23,291 bases of DNA, from the IMG/VR virus record IMGVR_UViG_3300044629_000496, positions 1 through 23,291 of that record. One strand, given 5' to 3'. The position numbers and the translations under genes were made by a program. The DNA is from a virus. Positions 354 through 15,082 of this stretch are shown one piece after another (the stretch's first letter is position 1; the number at the start of each line of letters is the position of its first letter). The notes below the pieces were generated by a model. It searched no databases. It was given only the letters and a program-made list of their open reading frames with translations, and had not been told where the DNA came from.

Positions 354-1100
354 ATGAAGTGCGTGACATACAAAGGTGTTTCGTTCTTGATCCCGCCTCC
401 GGGAGAAAAGAATTCATCCAGCGAGGTCGGTATGTCGTATTGGTGGACGTCACCAAAGTCCGCGCTGACGTATGTTGAACAAATTTGGTACGTGAATCAG
501 TTCGTCAAGGCTGACCCGCTGAATATACTTGAGGTGTTCGCAGGTATGGGTGTCAGTACTGCGCCGTTGCGATCACGTAACATCAACACTCACGTCGGTA
601 TCGACCATGACAAGGAGAGTCTAGACGCGTTCTCTTGCGTTCATGAAGACGCGGCGGCGATTGTTGGCGACTCATACAAGGTCGCTCCTGAGTTGCTGAA
701 GAAGTATGCGTACGACTACGTGCTCGCTGAGTACAACGCGCTGACAGTGTACCGAGCAATTCAAGACGACAAAGAGCAACAACTGTTCAACGCGCTATTT
801 CGATCTGGCGTCAGGTACGTAACTATCGTGGATAGCGCCAAAGTAAAGGAGCATCTTCACTACAAAAGGTACGCGGCGTTCTTTGATTCACCGATCTATG
901 ATTCACACACGTATATCGAAGCTGTGGCAAACTTCATCAAGCGCAAATACGGGTATGGTCTACAGGCGACCGCTCACGACTCGTTGAACTACACGATGCT
1001 GTTTGAAATGGGAGCGCCGTGCCGACCTGAAGTGATACAAGACACGCGAACCATGCTGGACTTGAAACAATACAAGGAGAATTTTTGTGATCACGTATAA
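354..1100 (+). CDS. SAM-dependent methyltransferase-fold protein, first gene of the modification cassette
   Basis: This 248-aa protein has a Rossmann-type AdoMet-binding signature. Motif I is ILEVFAGMG at residues 58-66, followed by an acidic residue at the end of strand 2 (VGIDHD, D84). The strand 4 equivalent reads YDYVLAEYN (120-128), where a DNA amino-methyltransferase would have DPPY/NPPY and a C5-methyltransferase would have PCQ, so it lacks both usual base-methylation motifs. It could methylate a different atom, such as a hypermodified side chain, or act only in binding. It overlaps the next gene by 14 nt and heads the cluster of kinases and transferase-like genes, so a role in DNA hypermodification is an inference from position. 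The methyltransferase fold is fairly sure; the substrate is unknown. Confidence 0.6.
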   Translation: MKCVTYKGVSFLIPPPGEKNSSSEVGMSYWWTSPKSALTYVEQIWYVNQFVKADPLNILEVFAGMGVSTAPLRSRNINTHVGIDHDKESLDAFSCVHEDAAAIVGDSYKVAPELLKKYAYDYVLAEYNALTVYRAIQDDKEQQLFNALFRSGVRYVTIVDSAKVKEHLHYKRYAAFFDSPIYDSHTYIEAVANFIKRKYGYGLQATAHDSLNYTMLFEMGAPCRPEVIQDTRTMLDLKQYKENFCDHV

Positions 1101-1866
1101 CAAAGAAATGCCGTGGCAAACCTACGCCAGACTCACGGTGATGACCGACGATCTTGATCCAGTGTACGTCGCGTTGCACAACAGCGGCTGGGATGAATCA
1201 AAGCTGTTGAGGTGGTGTGCGGCGTTCGTTACGTACTACCATACCGGCACTGCGTGCGCCGTCTGCGACCTTGAAGGTGATGAGTTCTGGAAAGAAATCT
1301 ATCGCCGGTACGACACCAACCCGCGCTCTTCAGAGCGTCGTCACTTCCGTGGTGAGGCTGGTAAGAAGGCCCTGCGTCACTGGGCAACGGAGTACGTCAG
1401 TCCAGAAGCGTTCATGTTGGCGTGTATGAAGTCGTCGTTCATGAAGACGTTAGAGGCCGGCATACCTCAAATTGGCGCCTACTTCACGTGGAAGGTTTGC
1501 GACTTGAGGGAGGCTGTGTTCGGTTACAGCATGGATTGGGCGGGAGCAGAAAGCCACATGCTGAAGACGGCGACCAATGGTCTCGAATTGATCTTCCCCG
1601 GAGAAAAGTATGAGCAAAGCGTGTTCAAGATTGTTGATGCTATCAGCGATCTTGACGCCCCTCCTCAGAAGGTGAGGAAATGTGGAATTGCCGAAGCTGA
1701 GACAGTAGCCTGTGGTATTCGCCAATATTACCTACGCGGAGCGCCTATCGGTGAGGATATTGTGGCGAAACGTGACAATCTTACCGGTGGCGGCGAGAAC
1801 GCTATCCATCTTATGAGCTGTTTCCCCAAAGTGCCGAAGGACGCAGACTATGTATCATATCTATAA
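1087..1866 (+). CDS. Divergent aGPT-PPlase/HMUDK-helical-domain-like protein (predicted DNA thymine hypermodification enzyme)
   Basis: This 259-aa protein starts at GTG, with AAGGAGA about 6 nt upstream and a 14-nt overlap with the previous gene. Three blocks recall the helical, DNA-glycosylase-like superfamily of alpha-glutamyl/putrescinyl-thymine pyrophosphorylases and 5-hmdU DNA kinase helical domains: RRHFRGEAGKKAL (84-96), IPQIGAYFTWKVCDL (126-140, which resembles a helix-hairpin-helix) and ETVACGIRQYYLRGAPIGED (205-224). In the known pathway such enzymes exchange the (pyro)phosphate on 5-hydroxymethyluracil in DNA for an amino compound. Two kinases follow directly, and a second family member lies at 2991-3866. 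It could instead be a stand-alone version of the helical domain that is fused to the kinase elsewhere. Family assignment is by pattern recognition and moderately sure. Confidence 0.55.
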   Translation: MITYNKEMPWQTYARLTVMTDDLDPVYVALHNSGWDESKLLRWCAAFVTYYHTGTACAVCDLEGDEFWKEIYRRYDTNPRSSERRHFRGEAGKKALRHWATEYVSPEAFMLACMKSSFMKTLEAGIPQIGAYFTWKVCDLREAVFGYSMDWAGAESHMLKTATNGLELIFPGEKYEQSVFKIVDAISDLDAPPQKVRKCGIAEAETVACGIRQYYLRGAPIGEDIVAKRDNLTGGGENAIHLMSCFPKVPKDADYVSYL

Positions 1867-2443
1867 TCCTCGATCCACGAACGGCGGAGGTAAGACCTCG
1901 CTGGTTCGCGCAATCATGCGCAAGATGCAACACCTCAAGGACTACAAAACGCAGAACGGAGTCTTCACTGAGATATTCATCACGCCATCCGGGGAGTACG
2001 TGGCGGTAGTTGGAGGTTACCCGAAAGGTATCGCGTCTGGTGGAGTTGATCGCGTCAAGAATGTTCGCGATGTTGTAGACGCCGTCGCTGAGTTGTCCAT
2101 GCACGGTCATGTGATTCTTGAGGGGCTTTTGATGTCAGGACTTCAACAGCTGACGAAGGATATCGCTGATGCGTGCCCCGGCGCAGTATATCACGTGCGG
2201 GAGCTCGACACTCCGTTGGAGGCGTGCATCAAGAACACGCTGCACAGGCGCGAGGTTGCTGGTAATACGAAACCGTTCGATCCAAACAATAGCCTCACAC
2301 CCAAGCACCGATCTACAACAATGGCCACCGCCAAGCTCGCTTCGTGGGGTATGGATGCTAAGGCTGTTTCGCAGTGGGAGGCGTATAAAGAGGCGTGTGA
2401 GCTCTTTGGCCTTCCGTTTTCAGAGGAGGATGAGATAGTATGA
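1850..2443 (+). CDS. P-loop kinase 1, 5-hydroxymethyl-dU DNA kinase-like, with variant Walker A
   Basis: This 197-aa protein overlaps the previous gene by 17 nt and has AAGGA about 8 nt before its ATG. Its P-loop is STNGGGKT (residues 9-16), with Ser where the consensus GxxxxGK[ST] has its first Gly. It then has a glycine-rich block (VVGGYPKGIASGGVD, 53-67), a hydrophobic strand ending HVILEG (87-92), and RREVAG (133-138), possibly lid-like. All four blocks align in order with the next gene (GTNGSGKT, GSYDRACGGCD, NVIFEG, RRAVAG), so the two are tandem paralogues. By resemblance and context it probably phosphorylates the hydroxymethyl group of hmU in DNA. A generic nucleotide kinase is the main alternative. 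The Ser substitution could lower activity or mark a second phosphorylation step. Confidence 0.65.
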   Translation: MYHIYNPRSTNGGGKTSLVRAIMRKMQHLKDYKTQNGVFTEIFITPSGEYVAVVGGYPKGIASGGVDRVKNVRDVVDAVAELSMHGHVILEGLLMSGLQQLTKDIADACPGAVYHVRELDTPLEACIKNTLHRREVAGNTKPFDPNNSLTPKHRSTTMATAKLASWGMDAKAVSQWEAYKEACELFGLPFSEEDEIV

Positions 2444-2997
2444 AAGTCATCGGCATTCGCGGCACCAACGGGAGCGGCAAGACGTGGGTGGCCCGTAAGA
2501 TTATGGAGCATGCTGACGCAGGGTTCAAAACCAAGTACAAATTGGACAACGGCGTCCTTGTGAATGTATACGACAAGTTCGTCATCCTTGGGTCGTATGA
2601 CCGAGCGTGCGGCGGCTGCGATACAATCTCCAAGCCGAGTATCGCTATGGATGCTGTCGTTGAGTGCGCCGCATACACCAATGTCATATTCGAGGGAATC
2701 CTCGTGGGCACCGTTTATCAACCGACCATCGACATGATGGCGCGACTCAATCCATTAGGAGCTACTTATATACCGATTTGCCTCAATACCGAGTTCGATC
2801 AGTGTATCGCCAACATCAACTCCCGTCGCGCTGTTGCTGGCAAAGCTGCGCTAGAGGGGCTGGAGAACGTCGAAACCAATTGGAAGAAGCACTTGAGTTC
2901 AGCAAAGAAGTTCCACGCTGACAACCTCAAACCATACTGGGTGTCGTCTGAAGAAGCCGTCCAAATCATTCTAGAGGAGCTTGGGTACTCATGTTAA
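2440..2997 (+). CDS. P-loop kinase 2, 5-hydroxymethyl-dU DNA kinase-like
   Basis: This 185-aa protein overlaps kinase 1 in an ATGA junction. It has a textbook Walker A motif (GTNGSGKT, residues 8-15) at the extreme N-terminus. A Cys- and Gly-rich block, GSYDRACGGCD (51-61), follows, then NVIFEG (81-86) and RRAVAG (129-134). The V-x-x-G-x-Y-x-x-x-x-GG-x-D block is one I associate with phage 5-hmdU DNA kinases rather than with dNMP kinases. Those enzymes transfer phosphate to hydroxymethyluracil already in DNA, creating the leaving group for a later amine transfer. The gene is flanked by kinase 1 and by an aGPT-PPlase-like gene, which fits that pathway. It lacks the helical domain often fused to these kinases. 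Confidence 0.7.
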   Translation: MKVIGIRGTNGSGKTWVARKIMEHADAGFKTKYKLDNGVLVNVYDKFVILGSYDRACGGCDTISKPSIAMDAVVECAAYTNVIFEGILVGTVYQPTIDMMARLNPLGATYIPICLNTEFDQCIANINSRRAVAGKAALEGLENVETNWKKHLSSAKKFHADNLKPYWVSSEEAVQIILEELGYSC

Positions 2998-3866
2998 ACA
3001 ACGACAAGCTGGCCAAACTTATCTATTGGATTGAGGAGCGCGAGCACATCCGTGAAGCAAAGGAGCGTGGCGAACCTGCGCCGTGGACAGAGGATACGTT
3101 GCTTCAGACCTACCGATTCTGCAACGTCTGCCGTCGTGATGACCGCGTGTCGGATTGGTTGATTGAGAATGTCTACAAACCGAACGCCGCGAGCGAGCTG
3201 CTGTGGTTGATGGCGGTGTGCGCTCGCTGGGTAAACTGGCCACCGACAATCAAGGAGCTGATTGACGAACGCGCATGGCCCAACTTGTGGTTCAACGCGG
3301 AGCACTTCGGTAAAGTAATTGATGCTCGCGTAAATCGTGGCGAGAAGGCTTGGACGGGAGCGTACATGATTCACTCCCTGTCCGACCCAACCATGCAAAA
3401 GGGTATGTGGCTTGCAACCAAGTGTATCCAGCCTCTCTATGAGCAGCGCGAGCGATTCAAACAGTTCTTCAAGTCTGAAAACAAGTCCGTCGAGCGAGCC
3501 ATGGCGTTGTTTGACGGTTGCTTCAACTTTGGCTCCTTCATGGCGGGTCAAGTGGTCGCTGACTGGACGTACACTGGACTGCTAAAGGACGCTACAGACC
3601 TTTACACATTCGCACCTATCGGGCCGGGATCAATGCGTGGCATGAACCGTCTTCACGACCGCCAGCTTGAGAAGCCGATGAAGCAAGCGCAATTCACCGA
3701 GGAGCTTCAGGAGTTGAAGGAGACGCTGAGCATCGAGCTTCCGTGGTTGCGAGAGCTTGTAACGGCCATGGATTTGCAATCCTGCCTGTGCGAAATCGAT
3801 AAGTACATGCGGCTGGAGAACGGCGGCAGTGTTCGAGCGAAGTACCAACCGGAGACACGATTTTGA
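2991..3866 (+). CDS. aGPT-PPlase clade 2-like DNA hypermodification enzyme
   Basis: This 291-aa protein closely matches the pattern of the phage alpha-glutamyl/putrescinyl-thymine pyrophosphorylase family. Near the N-terminus it has ERGEPAPWTEDTLLQTYRF (25-43) running into CNVCRRDDRVSDWL (44-57). In the C-terminal half it has FNFGSFMAGQVVADW (178-192) and APIGPGSMRGMNRL (208-221). Known members belong to a helix-hairpin-helix DNA-glycosylase-like superfamily and replace the (pyro)phosphate on hmU in DNA with an amine or amino acid. It overlaps kinase 2 by 7 nt and the thymidylate-synthase-family gene by 4 nt, so the proposed pathway enzymes are co-translated. The nucleophile used here cannot be read from sequence. 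This is the best marker for the whole cassette. Confidence 0.75.
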   Translation: MLNNDKLAKLIYWIEEREHIREAKERGEPAPWTEDTLLQTYRFCNVCRRDDRVSDWLIENVYKPNAASELLWLMAVCARWVNWPPTIKELIDERAWPNLWFNAEHFGKVIDARVNRGEKAWTGAYMIHSLSDPTMQKGMWLATKCIQPLYEQRERFKQFFKSENKSVERAMALFDGCFNFGSFMAGQVVADWTYTGLLKDATDLYTFAPIGPGSMRGMNRLHDRQLEKPMKQAQFTEELQELKETLSIELPWLRELVTAMDLQSCLCEIDKYMRLENGGSVRAKYQPETRF

Positions 3867-4849
3867 TTACCTTCAACGTCCAGAACGTCAATTACGCATT
3901 CCCTCTTGCCATACGCCAGATACAGGAAATCGGCGTCAAGCAAGAATCCCGCGTAGGATCAACGCTTGAGTTCGCAGAACCTGTAGCAACCACGTACTAC
4001 AAGCCGATGGAGCGCGTACTGTTTGATACTAACAGGCTTTGCAATCCATTCTTCCATTTTGTGGAGAGCATGTGGATCATCAACGGCTCCCGCGATACGG
4101 AATTCCTCGATCACTTCAACACGCAGATGAAGCAGTACTCTGACGACGGCGAAACCTTCTACGGAGCCTACGGCCACAGGCTTCGCAAGACGCACGGCTT
4201 TGATCAGATTGAGAAGGCTGTGCATTTGCTGCGCGCCAATCACAACGACCGGCGCGTGGTGTTGTCGATGTGGGATCCTAAACATGATCTTGGTCATAAC
4301 ATGAAAGACCATCCGTGTAATGTGGCAATCTTTCTGAAGGTGCGCAACCATAAGTTGAACATGACTGTGTTGTGTAGATCGAATGATATGCTGTACGGGG
4401 CTTACGGCGCCAACGTGGTTCACATGTCAATGCTGCAAGAGTATCTAGCTTGTCGCGTGGGAGTTGATGTAGGTATCTATACTCAGGTGAGCGACAGCAT
4501 GCACGTCTATACCGACATTCCCGTATGGGAAGCCGTCAAGGATACGACGTACGACGTTGAGGACTACTACAGTACTGAGCATTCCGACCTGCTCACCAAG
4601 CCGTATCCGATGTTTAAAGATTGCCACGAGAAGTCTTGGGCGGCGGACTTGGAGTTGTTCATGCTGGATCCTGTCGACACCATCGAGTACAAGACGCCGT
4701 TCTTCCGTGATGTGGCGCAGCCTATCGCGTTGGTGTGGGAAGCGCACAAGCGGAATCGCAACGGACTCAAGTATGTCGACAGCATCAAGGCGACTGACTG
4801 GAAGTTCGCTTGCCGTCGTTGGTTAGAAATCAAGGAGGCGTCAAAATGA
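3863..4849 (+). CDS. Thymidylate synthase family; probable dUMP hydroxymethylase
   Basis: This 328-aa protein starts at TTG (GGAG 8 nt upstream; TTGA overlap with the previous stop); the next internal Met, residue 49, would remove conserved sequence. Thymidylate-synthase landmarks are ESMW (68-71), YGAYGHRLR (100-108), a catalytic Cys in DHPCN (C152), CRSNDMLYGAYGAN (171-184) and DSMHVY (211-216). Asn184 appears to align with the TS Asn that contacts uracil; dCMP hydroxymethylases carry Asp there, so dUMP is the likely substrate. Given the neighbouring kinase and aGPT-PPlase-like genes, hydroxymethylation to hmdUMP using methylene-tetrahydrofolate is more likely than methylation to dTMP. Sequence alone cannot separate the two. 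Confidence 0.8.
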   Translation: MITFNVQNVNYAFPLAIRQIQEIGVKQESRVGSTLEFAEPVATTYYKPMERVLFDTNRLCNPFFHFVESMWIINGSRDTEFLDHFNTQMKQYSDDGETFYGAYGHRLRKTHGFDQIEKAVHLLRANHNDRRVVLSMWDPKHDLGHNMKDHPCNVAIFLKVRNHKLNMTVLCRSNDMLYGAYGANVVHMSMLQEYLACRVGVDVGIYTQVSDSMHVYTDIPVWEAVKDTTYDVEDYYSTEHSDLLTKPYPMFKDCHEKSWAADLELFMLDPVDTIEYKTPFFRDVAQPIALVWEAHKRNRNGLKYVDSIKATDWKFACRRWLEIKEASK

Positions 4850-5367
4850 AAGACATCATGCTGGATTTGGAAACAATGGGGAAGGGCCCAACCGCCGCCA
4901 TCATCGCTATCGGCGCTGTCGAGTTTGATTTGGTAGGAGTTGGAGAGAGGTTCTATGAGACGGTAGATCTTGAGTCGTCTGTCGCTTGCGGAGGGGTGAT
5001 TGATGCTTCAACCGTGATGTGGTGGATGAAGCAGAGCCAAGAAGCGCGAAAAGCATTTGACGGTCACAACATCGCGTTGCCTGAAGCTCTCATCAAGTTT
5101 GCGGGATGGTTGGAGAATCGCGCTCCCAAGAAAGAATTAGAGGTTTGGGGTAACGGTGCATCATTCGACAACGTCATTATTTCGTCTGCGTACGACAACT
5201 GCGGTATAGACCTACCGTGGATGTATTATGGTGACCGCTGCTACCGCACGATGAAGAGTTTCCATCCAGACATCAAGTTGAACCGCGTCGGAACGTATCA
5301 CAACGCCGTGAATGACGCGGAGTCTCAGGCTCTCCACTTGATAGAAATCTTGAAGGTGATGTTATGA
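4846..5367 (+). CDS. DEDDh 3'-5' exonuclease, Rv2179c/ExoX-like
   Basis: I chose the ATG at 4846 (173 aa) over an upstream in-frame ATG at 4810. It has AAGGAGG 8 nt upstream, overlaps the previous stop as ATGA, and puts the exonuclease motif at the N-terminus. Exo I is IMLDLETMG (D7, E9), Exo II is WGNGASFDN (D108), and Exo III is YHNAVNDAESQA (H152, D157), the DEDDh arrangement. Such enzymes remove nucleotides from 3' ends of DNA or RNA; phage versions may serve in repair, in proofreading in trans or in host nucleic acid breakdown. It sits between the dUMP-modifying enzyme and a nucleotidase and may supply nucleotides for the modified pool. The catalytic class is sure; the substrate is not. 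Confidence 0.8.
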   Translation: MKDIMLDLETMGKGPTAAIIAIGAVEFDLVGVGERFYETVDLESSVACGGVIDASTVMWWMKQSQEARKAFDGHNIALPEALIKFAGWLENRAPKKELEVWGNGASFDNVIISSAYDNCGIDLPWMYYGDRCYRTMKSFHPDIKLNRVGTYHNAVNDAESQALHLIEILKVML

Positions 5368-5855
5368 AAGCCAAACTGAAATTCATCATGGACGGCGGCG
5401 AAGTGACGCGGTACCACACCACCCGCACCATCCAGAATGAAAGCGTCGGCCATCACTCATTCGGCGTGGCGATGTACTGTTACCTCCTATGCCAGCCATC
5501 TGCGAACCTTCTGATCGCGGCACTGGTACACGATCTAGCTGAGCACCTGACAGGCGACAGCCCTGCTCCTGCCAAGAAGGAGCTCGGTATTGGTGACATG
5601 GTGAACGCTCTTGAGGAGCGTCTATTGACGGAAGTCGGATTGAACATCACGCTTACTGAAAGCGAAAAGCGTACAATGAAATTAGCTGACATCTTTCAGG
5701 GCATGGCATTCTGCGTACGCGAGCTTCAAATGGGTAACAAGAACATGGACGCCATTTTCTGGCGGTATGCCGCCTACGCCAATGAGCGTCATCCGCACGG
5801 CGATGAACTCGTTCTGTACAACACAATCATGGAGATTTACAATGAGTGCAAATGA
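5364..5855 (+). CDS. HD-domain 5'-deoxynucleotidase, YfbR-like
   Basis: This 163-aa protein overlaps the exonuclease gene as ATGA. HD-superfamily metal ligands are visible: HHSFGVA (H31), ALVHDLAEHLTGD (H56, D57) and LADIFQGM (D109). E60 and D65 sit where YfbR has its catalytic pair, and Arg16 lies near the N-terminus as in YfbR. YfbR hydrolyses deoxynucleoside 5'-monophosphates to nucleosides and phosphate. In a phage that replaces thymine, such an enzyme could remove dTMP or other unwanted dNMPs so that the polymerase uses hydroxymethylated dUTP. That role is inferred from the neighbours, and general salvage is the alternative. Confidence 0.8.
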   Translation: MKAKLKFIMDGGEVTRYHTTRTIQNESVGHHSFGVAMYCYLLCQPSANLLIAALVHDLAEHLTGDSPAPAKKELGIGDMVNALEERLLTEVGLNITLTESEKRTMKLADIFQGMAFCVRELQMGNKNMDAIFWRYAAYANERHPHGDELVLYNTIMEIYNECK

Positions 5856-6150
5856 CAAGCAAGTCGGCGGCGCGCATTACAAAGCCGAGATTCAGCACTG
5901 GGATATCGTCAAAGAGCGTGAGTGGTGCTACCTAGTCGGCAACGCTACGAAGTACCTGTGGCGCCTCGGCCGTAAGGGAGGGCCGGACAAGAAGATTGAG
6001 GACGTTCAGAAGGCTATACATTACCTTGAGAAGAAGCTGGAGCAGCTGAAGGAGGAGTCAGACGAGGACTTGATGGTTGAGAAAGCTCGTCAAATGGCGA
6101 TCGACTTCTTCGAAGGCGAAGCAACGAAGGCTTACACGAATCAAGGATAA
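5842..6150 (+). CDS. DUF3310 family protein
   Basis: The ATG at 5842 gives 102 aa and is preferred over the upstream in-frame ATG at 5767. GGAG precedes it, it overlaps the nucleotidase gene by only 14 nt, and the conserved domain begins at once. The signature is VGGAHYK, then QHWD, YLVGNATKYLWR, GRKGGPDKKIEDVQKAIHYL and a charged helical tail. DUF3310 is a small helical domain common in phage replication regions, often labelled nucleotide kinase without support, and its biochemical role is not established. The A of its TAA stop is the A of the DNA polymerase ATG (TAATG), so the two are probably translated together. Confidence 0.8.
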   Translation: MSANDKQVGGAHYKAEIQHWDIVKEREWCYLVGNATKYLWRLGRKGGPDKKIEDVQKAIHYLEKKLEQLKEESDEDLMVEKARQMAIDFFEGEATKAYTNQG

Positions 6151-8021
6151 TGAAACACATCGTCTTTGACCTCGAGATATTCGCTAACCGTTTCCTGTTC
6201 TGCGGGCGAGTATTAGAGAATCGTAATCTAATCGTGATCTGGGGTCATCAACCGGACGCGATTGAACGGTTGCGCGAAGTCATGAGCAGCCCCTGCACAT
6301 TTGTCAGCTTCAATGGTCGTCGGTTTGATCTACCTGTGACGTCGGCTTTCTTGTCGGGTATGAAACAAGAGTTGCTCAAGAAGATGTCTAACGACATCAT
6401 TGAGAAGGAGGTTCAGCCGTGGCAGGTGTACCGCAAGCTTCGGCTTGAAGAGCTGAAGGTTGATCACATCGATTTGATAGACGTAGCGCCGGGAACATTC
6501 TCGTCGTTAAAAGCGTATGGCTCCCGCATGCACACGCGCTGGCTGAAGGACATACCGTTCGACCACAACGCGGAACTAACGGATGAGCAGTGTGTAGAGG
6601 TAGAAGCGTACTGCATTAATGACCTCGACACGACGGAGGAGCTGTTCAACAAACTCAAACTTGAGATACAGCTGCGTGTAGAAATGGGTGAGAGGTACGG
6701 TGAAGACTTCCGTAGCAAGTCTGATTCGCAAATGGCTGAGGCGGTGTTCGTCAAGAAGCTCAACATGACGCGAACGAAGTCCATTGTGCCAGAGTTTGTG
6801 ACATACAAGACTCCTCACTTTGTGAAGTTTGATTCAGCGGAGCTAACCAACATCGCTAAGAGGATTGAGGAGCATGAGTTCCTCGTCGATCAAGCAACTG
6901 GTCATGTGATTTTCCCATCGTTCTTGAAAGACAAAATCAAACTTGGCGCCGGTGAGTATCAAATGGGTGTGGGAGGTCTTCACTCAACGCACGACAAGAA
7001 AATATGCCATGTTTCGACAGATGACTACATCGTGGTGGACTTGGACGCGGCGTCGTACTACCCGATGATCGCAATACTGTGCAAACTGATTCCACAGAAC
7101 ACTGGAGAGAAATTCATACAGGTCTACAAGGAGATGATTGACCAGCGTCTCGAAGCCAAGCGACTGTGGAAGGCTGCTGAGAAAGTCAATGATGAAAAGA
7201 CGATCAAGGGGCAAAAATCTATTGCGGACACGCTGCGTATTTCCGTCAATGGAACGTTCGGTAAGACCGCATCGCGTTGGTCGCCGTTGTATTCTCCTGA
7301 CCTGATGATAGCCATCACGATCACTGGACAGCTCACGCTTCTGAGCCTCATTGAGAAGCTAGAAGCCGTTGGTGTGACGACCCTATCAGCAAACACGGAC
7401 GGTATTGCTATTGGCGGTTCTCGCGTGGCTATGGAGCGCGTTCTTAACGTCGTGAGCGAGTTTGAAACGATGAGCGGGTTCGAGTTTGAGTATACCCCCT
7501 ACCGCGTGTTGGCGATAAAAGACGTCAACAATTATATCGCTGTCAAGAAGAATCGAAAGGTCAAGTCGAAAGGTATCTATGCCGAACAAAGCCTATCCAA
7601 AAACCCCAACGCTCAAGTCTGTTCAGAAGCAGTGTCGAACTGGCTTGCGTTCGGGACTCCCCTTCAAGACACTATCCGGAAGTCAAGTGTCGAGGGGTTT
7701 CTCAGCGCTCGTTCGGTTACGGGAGGAGGCAAACAGGGTGATATATACTTGGGTCGCGTTGTCAGATGGTACAATTCCACTGATGCATCACTACCTCCAC
7801 TGACGTATGTCAAGAATGGAAACAAGGTGCCCAAGACCGACGGCGCTAGAGCCTACATGATTCTGGAGAAAGAGTTGCCGAAGGACTTAGACTATCAATG
7901 GTACTACAAAGAAGCAATCAACATCGCGATAAACGTAGGAGCAGGTGAGTTTCTCACAGAGGAAGAAAGACAGTTGGTTGCTCCCCCTCCAAAGGTGAAG
8001 AAGACAAAGGTGAAATCATGA
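6150..8021 (+). CDS. Family B DNA polymerase with 3'-5' exonuclease domain
   Basis: This 623-aa protein is the likely phage replicase. The exonuclease domain has VFDLEIF (D7, E9), FVSFNGRRFDLP (N55, D60) and YCINDLDTTEEL (Y154, D158). The polymerase domain has motif A VVDLDAASYYP (D297, YYP 303-305), motif B with K356 and SVNGTFGK (365-372), and motif C ANTDGIAI (D417). The first Asp of the usual DTD in motif C is Asn, while the second, essential one is kept. The short motif A to motif B distance leaves no room for the TPR1 insertion of phi29-type enzymes, so protein priming is unlikely. The tail is Lys- and Pro-rich. It lies directly downstream of nucleotide-modification genes and would have to accept modified dUTP. 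Confidence 0.9.
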   Translation: MKHIVFDLEIFANRFLFCGRVLENRNLIVIWGHQPDAIERLREVMSSPCTFVSFNGRRFDLPVTSAFLSGMKQELLKKMSNDIIEKEVQPWQVYRKLRLEELKVDHIDLIDVAPGTFSSLKAYGSRMHTRWLKDIPFDHNAELTDEQCVEVEAYCINDLDTTEELFNKLKLEIQLRVEMGERYGEDFRSKSDSQMAEAVFVKKLNMTRTKSIVPEFVTYKTPHFVKFDSAELTNIAKRIEEHEFLVDQATGHVIFPSFLKDKIKLGAGEYQMGVGGLHSTHDKKICHVSTDDYIVVDLDAASYYPMIAILCKLIPQNTGEKFIQVYKEMIDQRLEAKRLWKAAEKVNDEKTIKGQKSIADTLRISVNGTFGKTASRWSPLYSPDLMIAITITGQLTLLSLIEKLEAVGVTTLSANTDGIAIGGSRVAMERVLNVVSEFETMSGFEFEYTPYRVLAIKDVNNYIAVKKNRKVKSKGIYAEQSLSKNPNAQVCSEAVSNWLAFGTPLQDTIRKSSVEGFLSARSVTGGGKQGDIYLGRVVRWYNSTDASLPPLTYVKNGNKVPKTDGARAYMILEKELPKDLDYQWYYKEAINIAINVGAGEFLTEEERQLVAPPPKVKKTKVKS

Positions 8022-8320
8022 GTAAAGCATGGGTGGTGTTTGAAGATAAGAAGCGAGACTACGCAGCGGTGGATGACTTTGGAGAGATGAAGGTGATCTA
8101 CGGATCCATCGACAGGAACTTCGATCCTGAGGCAGCTATTCAACATGCGCGTCGCACGCTGAGGAATTATGAGGAGGACGATTTCCTTGTGATGTCCGGC
8201 GACCCAGCGCTGTGTTCCATTTGCGTGTGCGTTGTCGCTGAGAAGTTCGGCGTATGTAAGATTTTGAGATGGGATCGGAACCTCTTGAACTACACTCAAA
8301 TGATTTTGGATTTCGATTAA
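8018..8320 (+). CDS. Hypothetical protein, 100 aa
   Basis: It overlaps the DNA polymerase stop as ATGA and is the last gene before the promoter region at 8327. The protein alternates acidic and hydrophobic stretches (WVVFEDKKRDYAAVDDFGEMKVIYGSIDR is the N-terminal part, residues 5 onward) and looks like a small alpha/beta domain. Two Cys in SICVCVV (about 67-73) sit in a hydrophobic strand. There is no signal peptide and no recognisable catalytic motif. The coupling suggests a polymerase-associated or regulatory role, but no function can be assigned. Confidence 0.7.
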   Translation: MSKAWVVFEDKKRDYAAVDDFGEMKVIYGSIDRNFDPEAAIQHARRTLRNYEEDDFLVMSGDPALCSICVCVVAEKFGVCKILRWDRNLLNYTQMILDFD

Positions 8321-8398: not shown

Positions 8399-9142
8399 AT
8401 GGCTGCAGATTGGAAAGCGTCACTGGTCGTCGGTAAGCAGGAATTGCCTCCGCGCATATGCGTGTACGGCCCCCACGGTATCGGAAAAAGCACTTTCGCG
8501 GCGGCGTTCCCGAAACCTATCTTCATCTCGACGGAAGACGGATTGTCATCGCTGGATGTGACTTCGTTCCCGAAGGCTGCGAAGGTGGATGACGTGGTCG
8601 GGGCTATTCGTACGTTGATCAAGGAGGATCACGACTTCAAGACGGTGTGTATTGATTCCGTTGATTGGTTGGTGGAACCTCTGATTTCGGAAGATATCAA
8701 GGGTAAGTACGATGAGAAGGAGCGCGGGTACGGCAAAGAGCAGGTGTTCATCGCCGAATCCTTCCGCGAGATTCTTGAGGGGCTGAACGTCCTGCGCAAG
8801 AAGCGGAGTATGAATATCGTGATGATCGCTCATTCGGCCATCACACGCTTCGAAGACCCCAGGACGGAGCCTTACGACAGGTATCAGCCCAAGCTACCCA
8901 ACCGTTGCAACGCATTAATGCAGGAGTGGGTGGATATCCTGGCGTTCGTGAACTACAAAGTCCTCATCAAGAAGGCTGATGTCGGTTTCAACAATACGGT
9001 GTCACGCGGTATCACCACCGGCGAGCGCCTGTTGCACTTCGTTGAGAACCCTGCGTTCTTGGCAAAGAATCGCTACGCTTGTCCGGATACGGTCGAGCTG
9101 AGCTACACTGAGCTCGAAAAGCTCGTTCCTATTTCTAAGTAA
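8399..9142 (+). CDS. AAA/RecA-fold ATPase, Sak4/AAA_24-like recombination protein
   Basis: This 247-aa protein is the first gene after the promoter, with AAAGGAG 8 nt before its ATG. Walker A is GPHGIGKST (24-32), Walker B is TVCIDSVD (82-89, D86), and IVMIAHS (about 139-145) resembles the sensor strand of RecA-fold proteins. The length and the KxxxRICVYGPHGIGKST start are typical of the phage AAA_24 group, which includes Sak4-type single-strand annealing or recombinase proteins. These act on ssDNA during phage recombination and replication, usually next to an SSB. A DUF669 SSB-like gene follows 12 nt downstream, supporting that role. It could also be a helicase-loader-like ATPase. Confidence 0.8.
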   Translation: MAADWKASLVVGKQELPPRICVYGPHGIGKSTFAAAFPKPIFISTEDGLSSLDVTSFPKAAKVDDVVGAIRTLIKEDHDFKTVCIDSVDWLVEPLISEDIKGKYDEKERGYGKEQVFIAESFREILEGLNVLRKKRSMNIVMIAHSAITRFEDPRTEPYDRYQPKLPNRCNALMQEWVDILAFVNYKVLIKKADVGFNNTVSRGITTGERLLHFVENPAFLAKNRYACPDTVELSYTELEKLVPISK

Positions 9143-14190: not shown

Positions 14191-14339
14191 ACGTCCTATT
14201 ATTGAAACTGCGCTATTCCTTTAATATGACTCTCGCTTATTTAAGCGGCAACATGGGCGATGAAGATTACATGGACGCTCATGTGCGCGAGGCCGAAAAG
14301 GTGTGGTTGGAATTATGGAAAATAGGAGCAGTGAGATGA
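14187..14339 (+). CDS. Hypothetical small protein, 50 aa
   Basis: The ATG overlaps the previous stop (ATGA), with AAGGAG upstream, and its TGA overlaps the RNA ligase start. The peptide is amphipathic and acidic in the middle (GNMGDEDYMDAHVREAEKVW) and probably helical. The start has several A/T-rich Leu codons (CTA TTA TTG, then TTA), unlike its neighbours, so it may be recently acquired. No family is recognised. Confidence 0.5.
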   Translation: MNVLLLKLRYSFNMTLAYLSGNMGDEDYMDAHVREAEKVWLELWKIGAVR

Positions 14340-15082
14340 ACGAGTACCACAAGATTCAAACGCTTTTCAAGCGCGACATGGAACGCAACGGCAAGACGCT
14401 GCTTGAGGGGCAATGGACGCTGCCGGAGTTCGAGTTCTTGGCCGGGAACACTTGGGTTTTCACCGAGAAAGTGGACGGCACAAACATTCGTGTGATGTGC
14501 CAAGACTACCGCGAGGACGGGAAGCAGTATGGCATTACCTTCGGCGGGAAGACCGATGCGGCACAAATACCGGCGACGTTGATTGCACGGCTTGTTCATC
14601 GGTTTCACACGGACGAGCAACGCGCAAGACTGGCAGAGATATTCCCTGACGGTAACGTCTGCCTGTACGGCGAAGGCTACGGCGCGAAGATTCAGAGGGG
14701 CGGCGGCAACTACCGGGCCGACCAAGATTTTGTGCTTTTCGATTGCAAGGTCGGCGACTGGTGGCTGCAACGTGCTGACGTTGAGGACGTGGCGCAGAAG
14801 CTCGGACTTGACGTTGTGCCGATCATCGGAGAGGGAACGCTGCACGATGCCATCGCGGCGGCAAAGGCGGGGATAGCCTCGACGTGGGGAAACTTCCAAG
14901 CCGAGGGGATTGTGGCGCGGCCCAAAACGGAGTTGAAGACTCGCAATGGTCATCGGATCATCACCAAGATCAAGTGCCGCGACTTTGGGGGGTCGAACGC
15001 AAAAGTCACCGGCTCGCCGGCATTATCGGCGAGTCCGAGTGGACTGCCGGGTTATGCCTCACAGACGAAAGGAGAGAAGTGA
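14336..15082 (+). CDS. RNA ligase (Rnl2-like nucleotidyltransferase domain)
   Basis: The ATG at 14336 (248 aa) is chosen over 14303 because AGGAG lies 8 nt upstream and it overlaps the previous stop. Ligase motifs run in order: motif I EKVDGTNIRV with Lys45 as the AMP-accepting residue, motif III CLYGEGYG (109-116), motif IV AEGIVARP (189-196) and motif V ITKIKCRDF with K211 and K213. There is no separate C-terminal domain, only a short Ser/Gly/Pro tail. Phage RNA ligases repair tRNA or other RNA cut by host defence nucleases, or join nicks in RNA duplexes. No polynucleotide kinase partner is seen in this window, which favours the Rnl2-type nick-sealing role. Confidence 0.8.
   Translation: MNEYHKIQTLFKRDMERNGKTLLEGQWTLPEFEFLAGNTWVFTEKVDGTNIRVMCQDYREDGKQYGITFGGKTDAAQIPATLIARLVHRFHTDEQRARLAEIFPDGNVCLYGEGYGAKIQRGGGNYRADQDFVLFDCKVGDWWLQRADVEDVAQKLGLDVVPIIGEGTLHDAIAAAKAGIASTWGNFQAEGIVARPKTELKTRNGHRIITKIKCRDFGGSNAKVTGSPALSASPSGLPGYASQTKGEK

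Follow-up and report, generated by a model that had tools for sequence, protein, structure and literature searches.

A conserved six-gene phage cassette predicted to hypermodify thymine by way of 5-hydroxymethyldeoxyuridine

Which base would a phage make from the core genes of a thymine hypermodification pathway when these are accompanied by a second kinase-like protein and an unnamed methyltransferase-fold protein, and by no recognizable enzyme for maturation of the side chain? The question is raised by IMGVR_UViG_3300044629_000496, a 23.3 kb viral contig analysed over positions 1–23,291 (hereafter the window). Six open reading frames (ORFs) on the + strand, at 354–1100, 1087–1866, 1850–2443, 2440–2997, 2991–3866 and 3863–4849, lie exactly where a first-pass annotation had placed six overlapping genes (354–4849). 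The second starts with GTG and the sixth with TTG, and the overlaps between successive ORFs (14, 17, 4, 7 and 4 nt) are as in one transcription unit. Family, structural and neighbourhood evidence strongly assigns five of the six genes to the pathway for thymidine hypermodification through 5-hydroxymethyldeoxyuridine (5-hmdU or hmdU). The cassette very probably replaces part of the phage thymine with a bulkier, amine-bearing base, and from the gene content we predict with high confidence a pathway that is based on 5-hmdU and ends in an amine adduct.

The first step would fall to the last gene. The ORF at 3863–4849 matches the thymidylate synthase (TS) family (PF00303, E = 1.3e-23; phrog_5131, E = 2.5e-108) and is predicted to encode a hydroxymethylase of deoxyuridine monophosphate (dUMP). 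The position that recognizes dUMP is Asn (RSNDMLYGAYGANVVHMSML) and the active-site Cys is present (KDHPCN), which bears out the earlier description of a TS with dUMP-type residues. The nearest PDB entry is a cytidine monophosphate (CMP) 5-hydroxymethylase, which has Asp where the window has Asn, and almost every TS homologue of thymidine hypermodification cassettes shows the signature RSND..GxxGAN.VxxS plus PCN.

Attachment of the amine would be the task of ADDT (1087–1866), an amino acid:DNA transferase of the aGPT-PPlase group. It is related by phmmer to the solved structures 25qc (E = 2.9e-14) and 8z2m, a 'Glycinyltransferase' (E = 7.5e-13), and keeps the family-invariant residues ERR..R, K136, D139, ExET and C209. 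The ORF at 2991–3866 encodes HMUDK_hel ('5-hmdU DNA kinase, helical domain'; aGPT-PPlase1 in the annotation of Pseudanabaena phage Pam3), which scores 137.4 bits against PF18723 (cut-off 25, E = 8e-40). Both proteins had been called aGPT-PPlase-like in the first-pass annotation. The group was right, in that the Pam3 and Sonora records call HMUDK_hel an aGPT-PPlase or pyrophosphorylase, but the two belong to different Pfam families. Profile–profile comparison of the pair with hhalign was not significant (probability 0.8%, E = 0.067); a similar GxxxxxxxVxxD-like and C-x(3)-K-like segment occurs in both. The AlphaFold2 (AF2) model of HMUDK_hel had a predicted local distance difference test score (pLDDT) of 93, and its top VIA-align rows were mostly helix-hairpin-helix (HhH) DNA glycosylases (MjOgg: Z 9.8, root-mean-square deviation (rmsd) 4.0, 185 aligned), a moderate Z that falls short of what is trusted for all-helical folds. 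The queuosine-salvage family DUF2419 was also near (Z 9.6), and Foldseek gave E > 0.1. A fold of the glycosylase or DUF2419 kind would suit a protein that reads or flips bases.

Judged by sequence comparison, the family matches of the cassette genes lie far beyond chance, and profile searches of 1087–1866, 1850–2443, 2440–2997 and 2991–3866 led to families of the pathway, not to unrelated ones. The original proposal of a thymidine (5-hmU) hypermodification cassette is upheld by the matches to PF18723, PF00303, PF18748 and PF18724 and by conservation of the block. With an ADDT profile, 228 loci were detected in IMG/VR, and the best 80 were retained. The order ADDT, pA, pB, HMUDK_hel, TS, where pA and pB are the two kinase-family genes, is kept in 11 contigs (L014–L024) at 47–67% amino acid identity, and the methyltransferase-fold gene G1 (354–1100) precedes ADDT in 8 of these 11 (42–46% identity). 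The G1 region of L024 lies outside the contig, and G1 orthologues are thus present in 8/10 informative sister contigs; G1 is absent from L016 and L017, a near-identical pair that retains the rest of the cassette. Between close relatives, the ratio of nonsynonymous to synonymous substitution rates (dN/dS) was 0–0.074 for all six genes, indicating that they are under strong purifying selection; because of these values, all six, including G1 and both kinases, are considered to be kept as working proteins. An independent contig (L002) is 100% identical to the window over 2439–8036, and the cassette is therefore no assembly artefact. Although the gene set had initially been considered unusual, it is not unique, since the conserved block is found in at least 12 phage contigs, and both two-kinase and maturation-free cassettes recur elsewhere. 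A megablast search with the whole cassette against 50,697 phage records gave no match. No clear pattern of palindrome avoidance, which might betray an escape from restriction, was seen, and the PADLOC defence models gave no meaningful match.

In the sister contigs, a gene of ~172 amino acids starting MNIFYLHH (phrog_624, 'DNA binding protein') is conserved directly upstream of G1 or ADDT (L014:5747, L015:5729–6247, L016:4997–5524, L018:5603, L023:5708). It abuts ADDT where G1 is missing, and none was seen in the window. A compact cassette of ADDT, kinase, TS and HD hydrolase genes, without HMUDK_hel or maturation genes, was seen in ~20 podovirus-like contigs (most of L026–L050, L004 and L005) and in Rhodoferax phage P26218.

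Why should one cassette carry two kinases? The product of 2440–2997, pB, is a 5-hmdU DNA kinase homologue that matches PF18748 (HMUDK; 29.1 bits, E = 8e-7) above the Pfam cut-off of 27. The second P-loop protein of this family, pA (1850–2443), does not exceed that cut-off and matches phrog_800 (E = 1.7e-8), the same PHROG as pB, to which it is homologous (E = 2e-17, 36% identity). The Walker A, GGxD, EG and Arg positions are conserved in both. A kinase tree of 97 rows puts the 12 pB proteins in a clade of their own (support 100/100) and places the 12 pA proteins with a branch that consists mostly of single kinases from P26218-kind podovirus cassettes that lack HMUDK_hel (support 97/83). Since the tree places them in different branches of the family, pA and pB did not arise by local duplication. 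The pair had been described as paralogous, which is correct for family members that are, by their placement, old paralogues, but the kinase was not duplicated within the cassette; a recent tandem duplication is ruled out by the tree. The two occur together in all 12 contigs, and two kinases are found in other cassettes as well, from distant branches in L077/L079 and from close ones in L072.

The substrates of the commercially available 5hmdU kinase are hmdU residues in TG and TC contexts (PMC7653180), and phages M6, ViI and phiW-14 have their modified sites in the TG/TC context too (PMC6449724). Two divergent kinases therefore most likely serve two contexts; that pA in particular works in a context of its own, separate from that of pB, is a tenable proposal that comes close to being probable. 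The kinases could also act in succession on the same hmdU, adding a first and then a second phosphate to give a pyrophosphorylated intermediate. Such an intermediate, HmPPU, is known from phiW-14, which has an hmdUMP synthase and adds the amine after replication (PMC5977210), and both window proteins keep their catalytic residues and are present throughout the 12 contigs. However, the records of phiW-14, M6-type (Lydia), P26218, Sonora and Pam3 each hold a single clear member of the kinase family, and the closest relatives of pA are the sole kinases of P26218-type cassettes. Because phiW-14 has one kinase-family gene, the case that pyrophosphorylation needs a second kinase is weakened, and we consider successive phosphorylation rather unlikely.

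PHROGs labels the 5-hmdU kinase family phrog_800 'terminase small subunit' (window 1850–2997; records H91–H135), and the kinase is probably misnamed in many Ackermannviridae and Pseudomonas phage records owing to this label.

G1 had no family in Pfam, PHROG or NCBIfam. Its AF2 model (pLDDT 78, predicted template modelling score (pTM) 0.83) has a class I S-adenosylmethionine (SAM)-methyltransferase fold, as the earlier term methyltransferase-fold protein implied, and the best PDB match was Trm1 (Z 14.2, rmsd 4.3, 216 aligned). The Rossmann-like fold, GxG loop and acidic residue ending β2 make the model that of a class I SAM-methyltransferase with putative SAM binding. Spermidine synthases among the Foldseek matches suggested another reading, but they were no better than generic methyltransferases. 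The family signature is ExxxGxG ... [DE][FYW]xxxT ... DSAKxKxHLH ... YGY, and the nine aligned members have in common ExxxGxG, a Thr after [DE]-x(4), an Asp (mostly followed by HL[HN]) and two Tyr. For G1, dN/dS was 0.02–0.09. A tblastn search of G1 against cultured phages gave no match, and Pam3 (Pam3_39), reached through remote homologues, is the only cultured phage found with G1. The L103 contig holds two G1 homologues (G009:C1:18105–18596 and 8596–9063).

Could G1 be a conventional DNA methyltransferase with A or C as its target, merely co-transcribed with the cassette and unrelated to thymine modification? There is weak similarity to the DNA methyltransferases of phrog_116 over the SAM-binding half of G1, and DNMT-type structures occur among its Foldseek matches. 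But none of the nine aligned members has the catalytic motif of C5 (PC) or N6A/N4C ([DNS]PP[YFW]) enzymes; they have AEYN, LEFN, CDFP or ADFN at the motif-IV position, and G1 is repeatedly associated with T-hypermodification genes in otherwise different cassettes. Since the motifs are absent, G1 is probably no ordinary base methyltransferase, and we regard this explanation as very unlikely.

Perhaps the role of G1 is instead to tailor the side chain, by SAM-dependent methylation or by placing another SAM-derived group on the amine or carboxylate, to give a base so far undescribed. The SAM-methyltransferase fold with its GxG loop and acidic β2 end, the location directly before ADDT, the missing base-methyltransferase motifs and a dN/dS of about 0.02 all speak for such a role. 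So do the remote homologues within other cassettes, which lie between the kinase and HMUDK_hel (L039), before the kinase (L064), between pyridoxal phosphate (PLP) enzyme and radical-SAM genes (L101) and ~2 kb before ADDT (L103), in addition to that of Pam3. However, G1 is found both with and without maturation genes, which means that it may act on something other than the side chain; the L102 homologue has no cassette gene visible within 8 kb; and G1 is absent from L016/L017 and from the M6-type, Ackermann-type and phiW-14 records. We consider tailoring by G1 possible, but hold it with some doubt.

What, then, would the final base be? Radical SAM, PALP, DAO and acetyltransferase domains and an M6-type PLP enzyme were sought in the window, an overlapping contig and five relatives, and none was found, in agreement with the first-pass annotation, which had seen no PLP-dependent, radical-SAM or acetyltransferase maturation gene. 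As positive controls, control records matched radical SAM, PALP, DAO and PLP enzyme, and the built-in control genomes matched acetyltransferase. The overlapping contig (IMGVR_UViG_3300044629_000639, 33.3 kb) shares positions 1–738 of the window at 96% and continues into primase, helicase, DNA ligase and terminase genes; the two form an unbroken early region, and the remaining gap, the late region, presumably holds structural genes only. Scored by profiles from one seed each, by which some may be missed, the 20 cassettes with maturation genes all sit within a single 37-row clade of the ADDT tree (support 100/99). Such a gene was found in 0/51 rows outside that clade, among which are phiW-14, the P26218 group and the clade of the window. 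Because of the missing maturation genes and this distribution, a direct adduct is favoured; in the predicted product, an amine or amino acid is most likely attached directly to the 5-methyl group of T, similar to the phiW-14 adduct, and possibly tailored by G1. The earlier suggestion that the base may be new does not follow from the lack of maturation genes by itself, since this lack fits a phiW-14-type direct adduct (alpha-putrescinylthymine) equally well.

There is a real possibility that the pathway ends in a direct adduct known before, such as alpha-putrescinylthymine or alpha-glutamylthymine, and that G1 is unrelated to the side chain. The top characterized ADDT relative by tblastn is phiW-14 gp109 (30% identity), the phiW-14 ADDT is likewise among the lineages without maturation genes, and the L016/L017 pair manages without G1. 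Against this, the grouping of the window's ADDT with that of phiW-14 is unsupported (83/43), and most sisters keep G1, which turns up again in unrelated cassettes. Should G1 be a new SAM-dependent tailoring enzyme and the kinases write complementary contexts, the result would be a thymine base and a modification density unseen before in DNA, a combination that we think unlikely on balance.

Downstream of the cassette, on the + strand, is an HD-domain phosphohydrolase (YfbR/dATPase-like; 5364–5855; PF12917, E = 3.4e-11). An HD-hydrolase homologue adjoins the TS gene in most T-hypermodification loci and, by analogy with the dTTPase of phiW-14 infection (PMC5977210), is a candidate remover of dTMP/dTTP that would favour the use of hmdUTP. 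An Rv2179c-like 3'-5' exonuclease gene (4846–5367; PF16473, E = 1.4e-51) overlaps the end of the TS gene, and none was seen at that place in the sister contigs examined. Elsewhere, the window encodes an RNA-ligase domain protein (14303–15082; PF09414, E = 1.6e-19), and the replication region of the overlapping contig has a GIY-YIG endonuclease (L012:6866–7528, − strand).

In the mechanism that we propose, the TS-family enzyme would make 5-hydroxymethyl-dUMP. Host kinases would convert this to hmdUTP, the HD hydrolase would meanwhile deplete dTMP/dTTP, and the phage polymerase would put hmdU into DNA. There, pB with HMUDK_hel as its partner, and pA separately, would phosphorylate or pyrophosphorylate chosen hmdU residues, each kinase probably in its own sequence context. 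After replication, ADDT would put an amino acid or polyamine, joined through its amine, in place of the phosphate. With no PLP, radical-SAM, flavin adenine dinucleotide (FAD) or acetyl step, this direct adduct would be final unless G1 tailors it, e.g., by SAM-dependent methylation. The analysis itself shows the gene families, their synteny, the selection on them, the folds and the lack of known maturation genes; everything specific to pA, G1, the HD hydrolase and the amine used is what we infer.

Several observations weigh against this scheme. The window's ADDT scores 25.4 bits against PF18724 (E = 1.4e-5), just below the cut-off of 26.2, which its L014 orthologue exceeds (35.7 bits). In the P-loop of the window's pA, Ser replaces the first Gly. 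A second kinase is not obviously needed, given that phiW-14 reaches its pyrophosphorylated intermediate with only one member of the kinase family. The single-protein search for FAD enzymes found no match in any record searched, so that it carries little weight alone. Finally, the contigs are fragmentary, which leaves room for maturation by an enzyme from elsewhere, encoded either by an unlinked gene within the unsequenced late-region gap or by the host.

If the scheme is correct, the G1 family and the two-kinase layout would be added to the thymidine hypermodification toolkit. Both suggest testable answers on what determines, in these phages, the chemistry of the modification and the share of T that carries it, and this share governs resistance to restriction enzymes. 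Kinases of 5-hmdU with other contexts and new DNA-tailoring enzymes would be useful reagents, and Pam3 and P26218 are isolated phages that allow direct tests.

Among known systems, Delftia phage phiW-14, which makes alpha-putrescinylthymine, shares the hmdUMP synthase, 5-hmdU kinase, HMUDK_hel and ADDT with the window, and the post-replicative addition of amine, known for phiW-14 (PMC5977210), is proposed here as well. It differs in that its genes are scattered over a 157 kb genome, with a single kinase-family member, no G1 and a known adduct. The Pseudomonas M6/YuA-type and Salmonella ViI-type systems (5-NedU, 5-NeOmdU), the latter represented by one Ackermannviridae-type relative (L104) rather than ViI itself, have the TS, 5-hmdU kinase, HMUDK_hel and ADDT families in common with the window; unlike it, M6-type cassettes, of which that of phage Lydia was the one seen here, combine PLP and radical-SAM genes with one kinase and lack G1. 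The cassettes of Rhodoferax phage P26218 and the Manatee Spring podovirus, for which we found no report of the base made, resemble the window in their ADDT, kinase, TS, HD order and lack of maturation genes, and no kinase branch lies nearer to pA than theirs, but they have one kinase and neither HMUDK_hel nor G1. Pam3 shares ADDT, kinase, HMUDK_hel, TS, HD and a G1 homologue, and differs in the location of G1 ~5 kb upstream of ADDT, in a threonine-dehydratase-like gene and Nmad5, and in having one kinase. Compared to the phiW-14, M6/ViI and P26218 types, the core of the window's cassette is the same; maturation genes are absent, and a second kinase from another branch of the family and G1 are extra.

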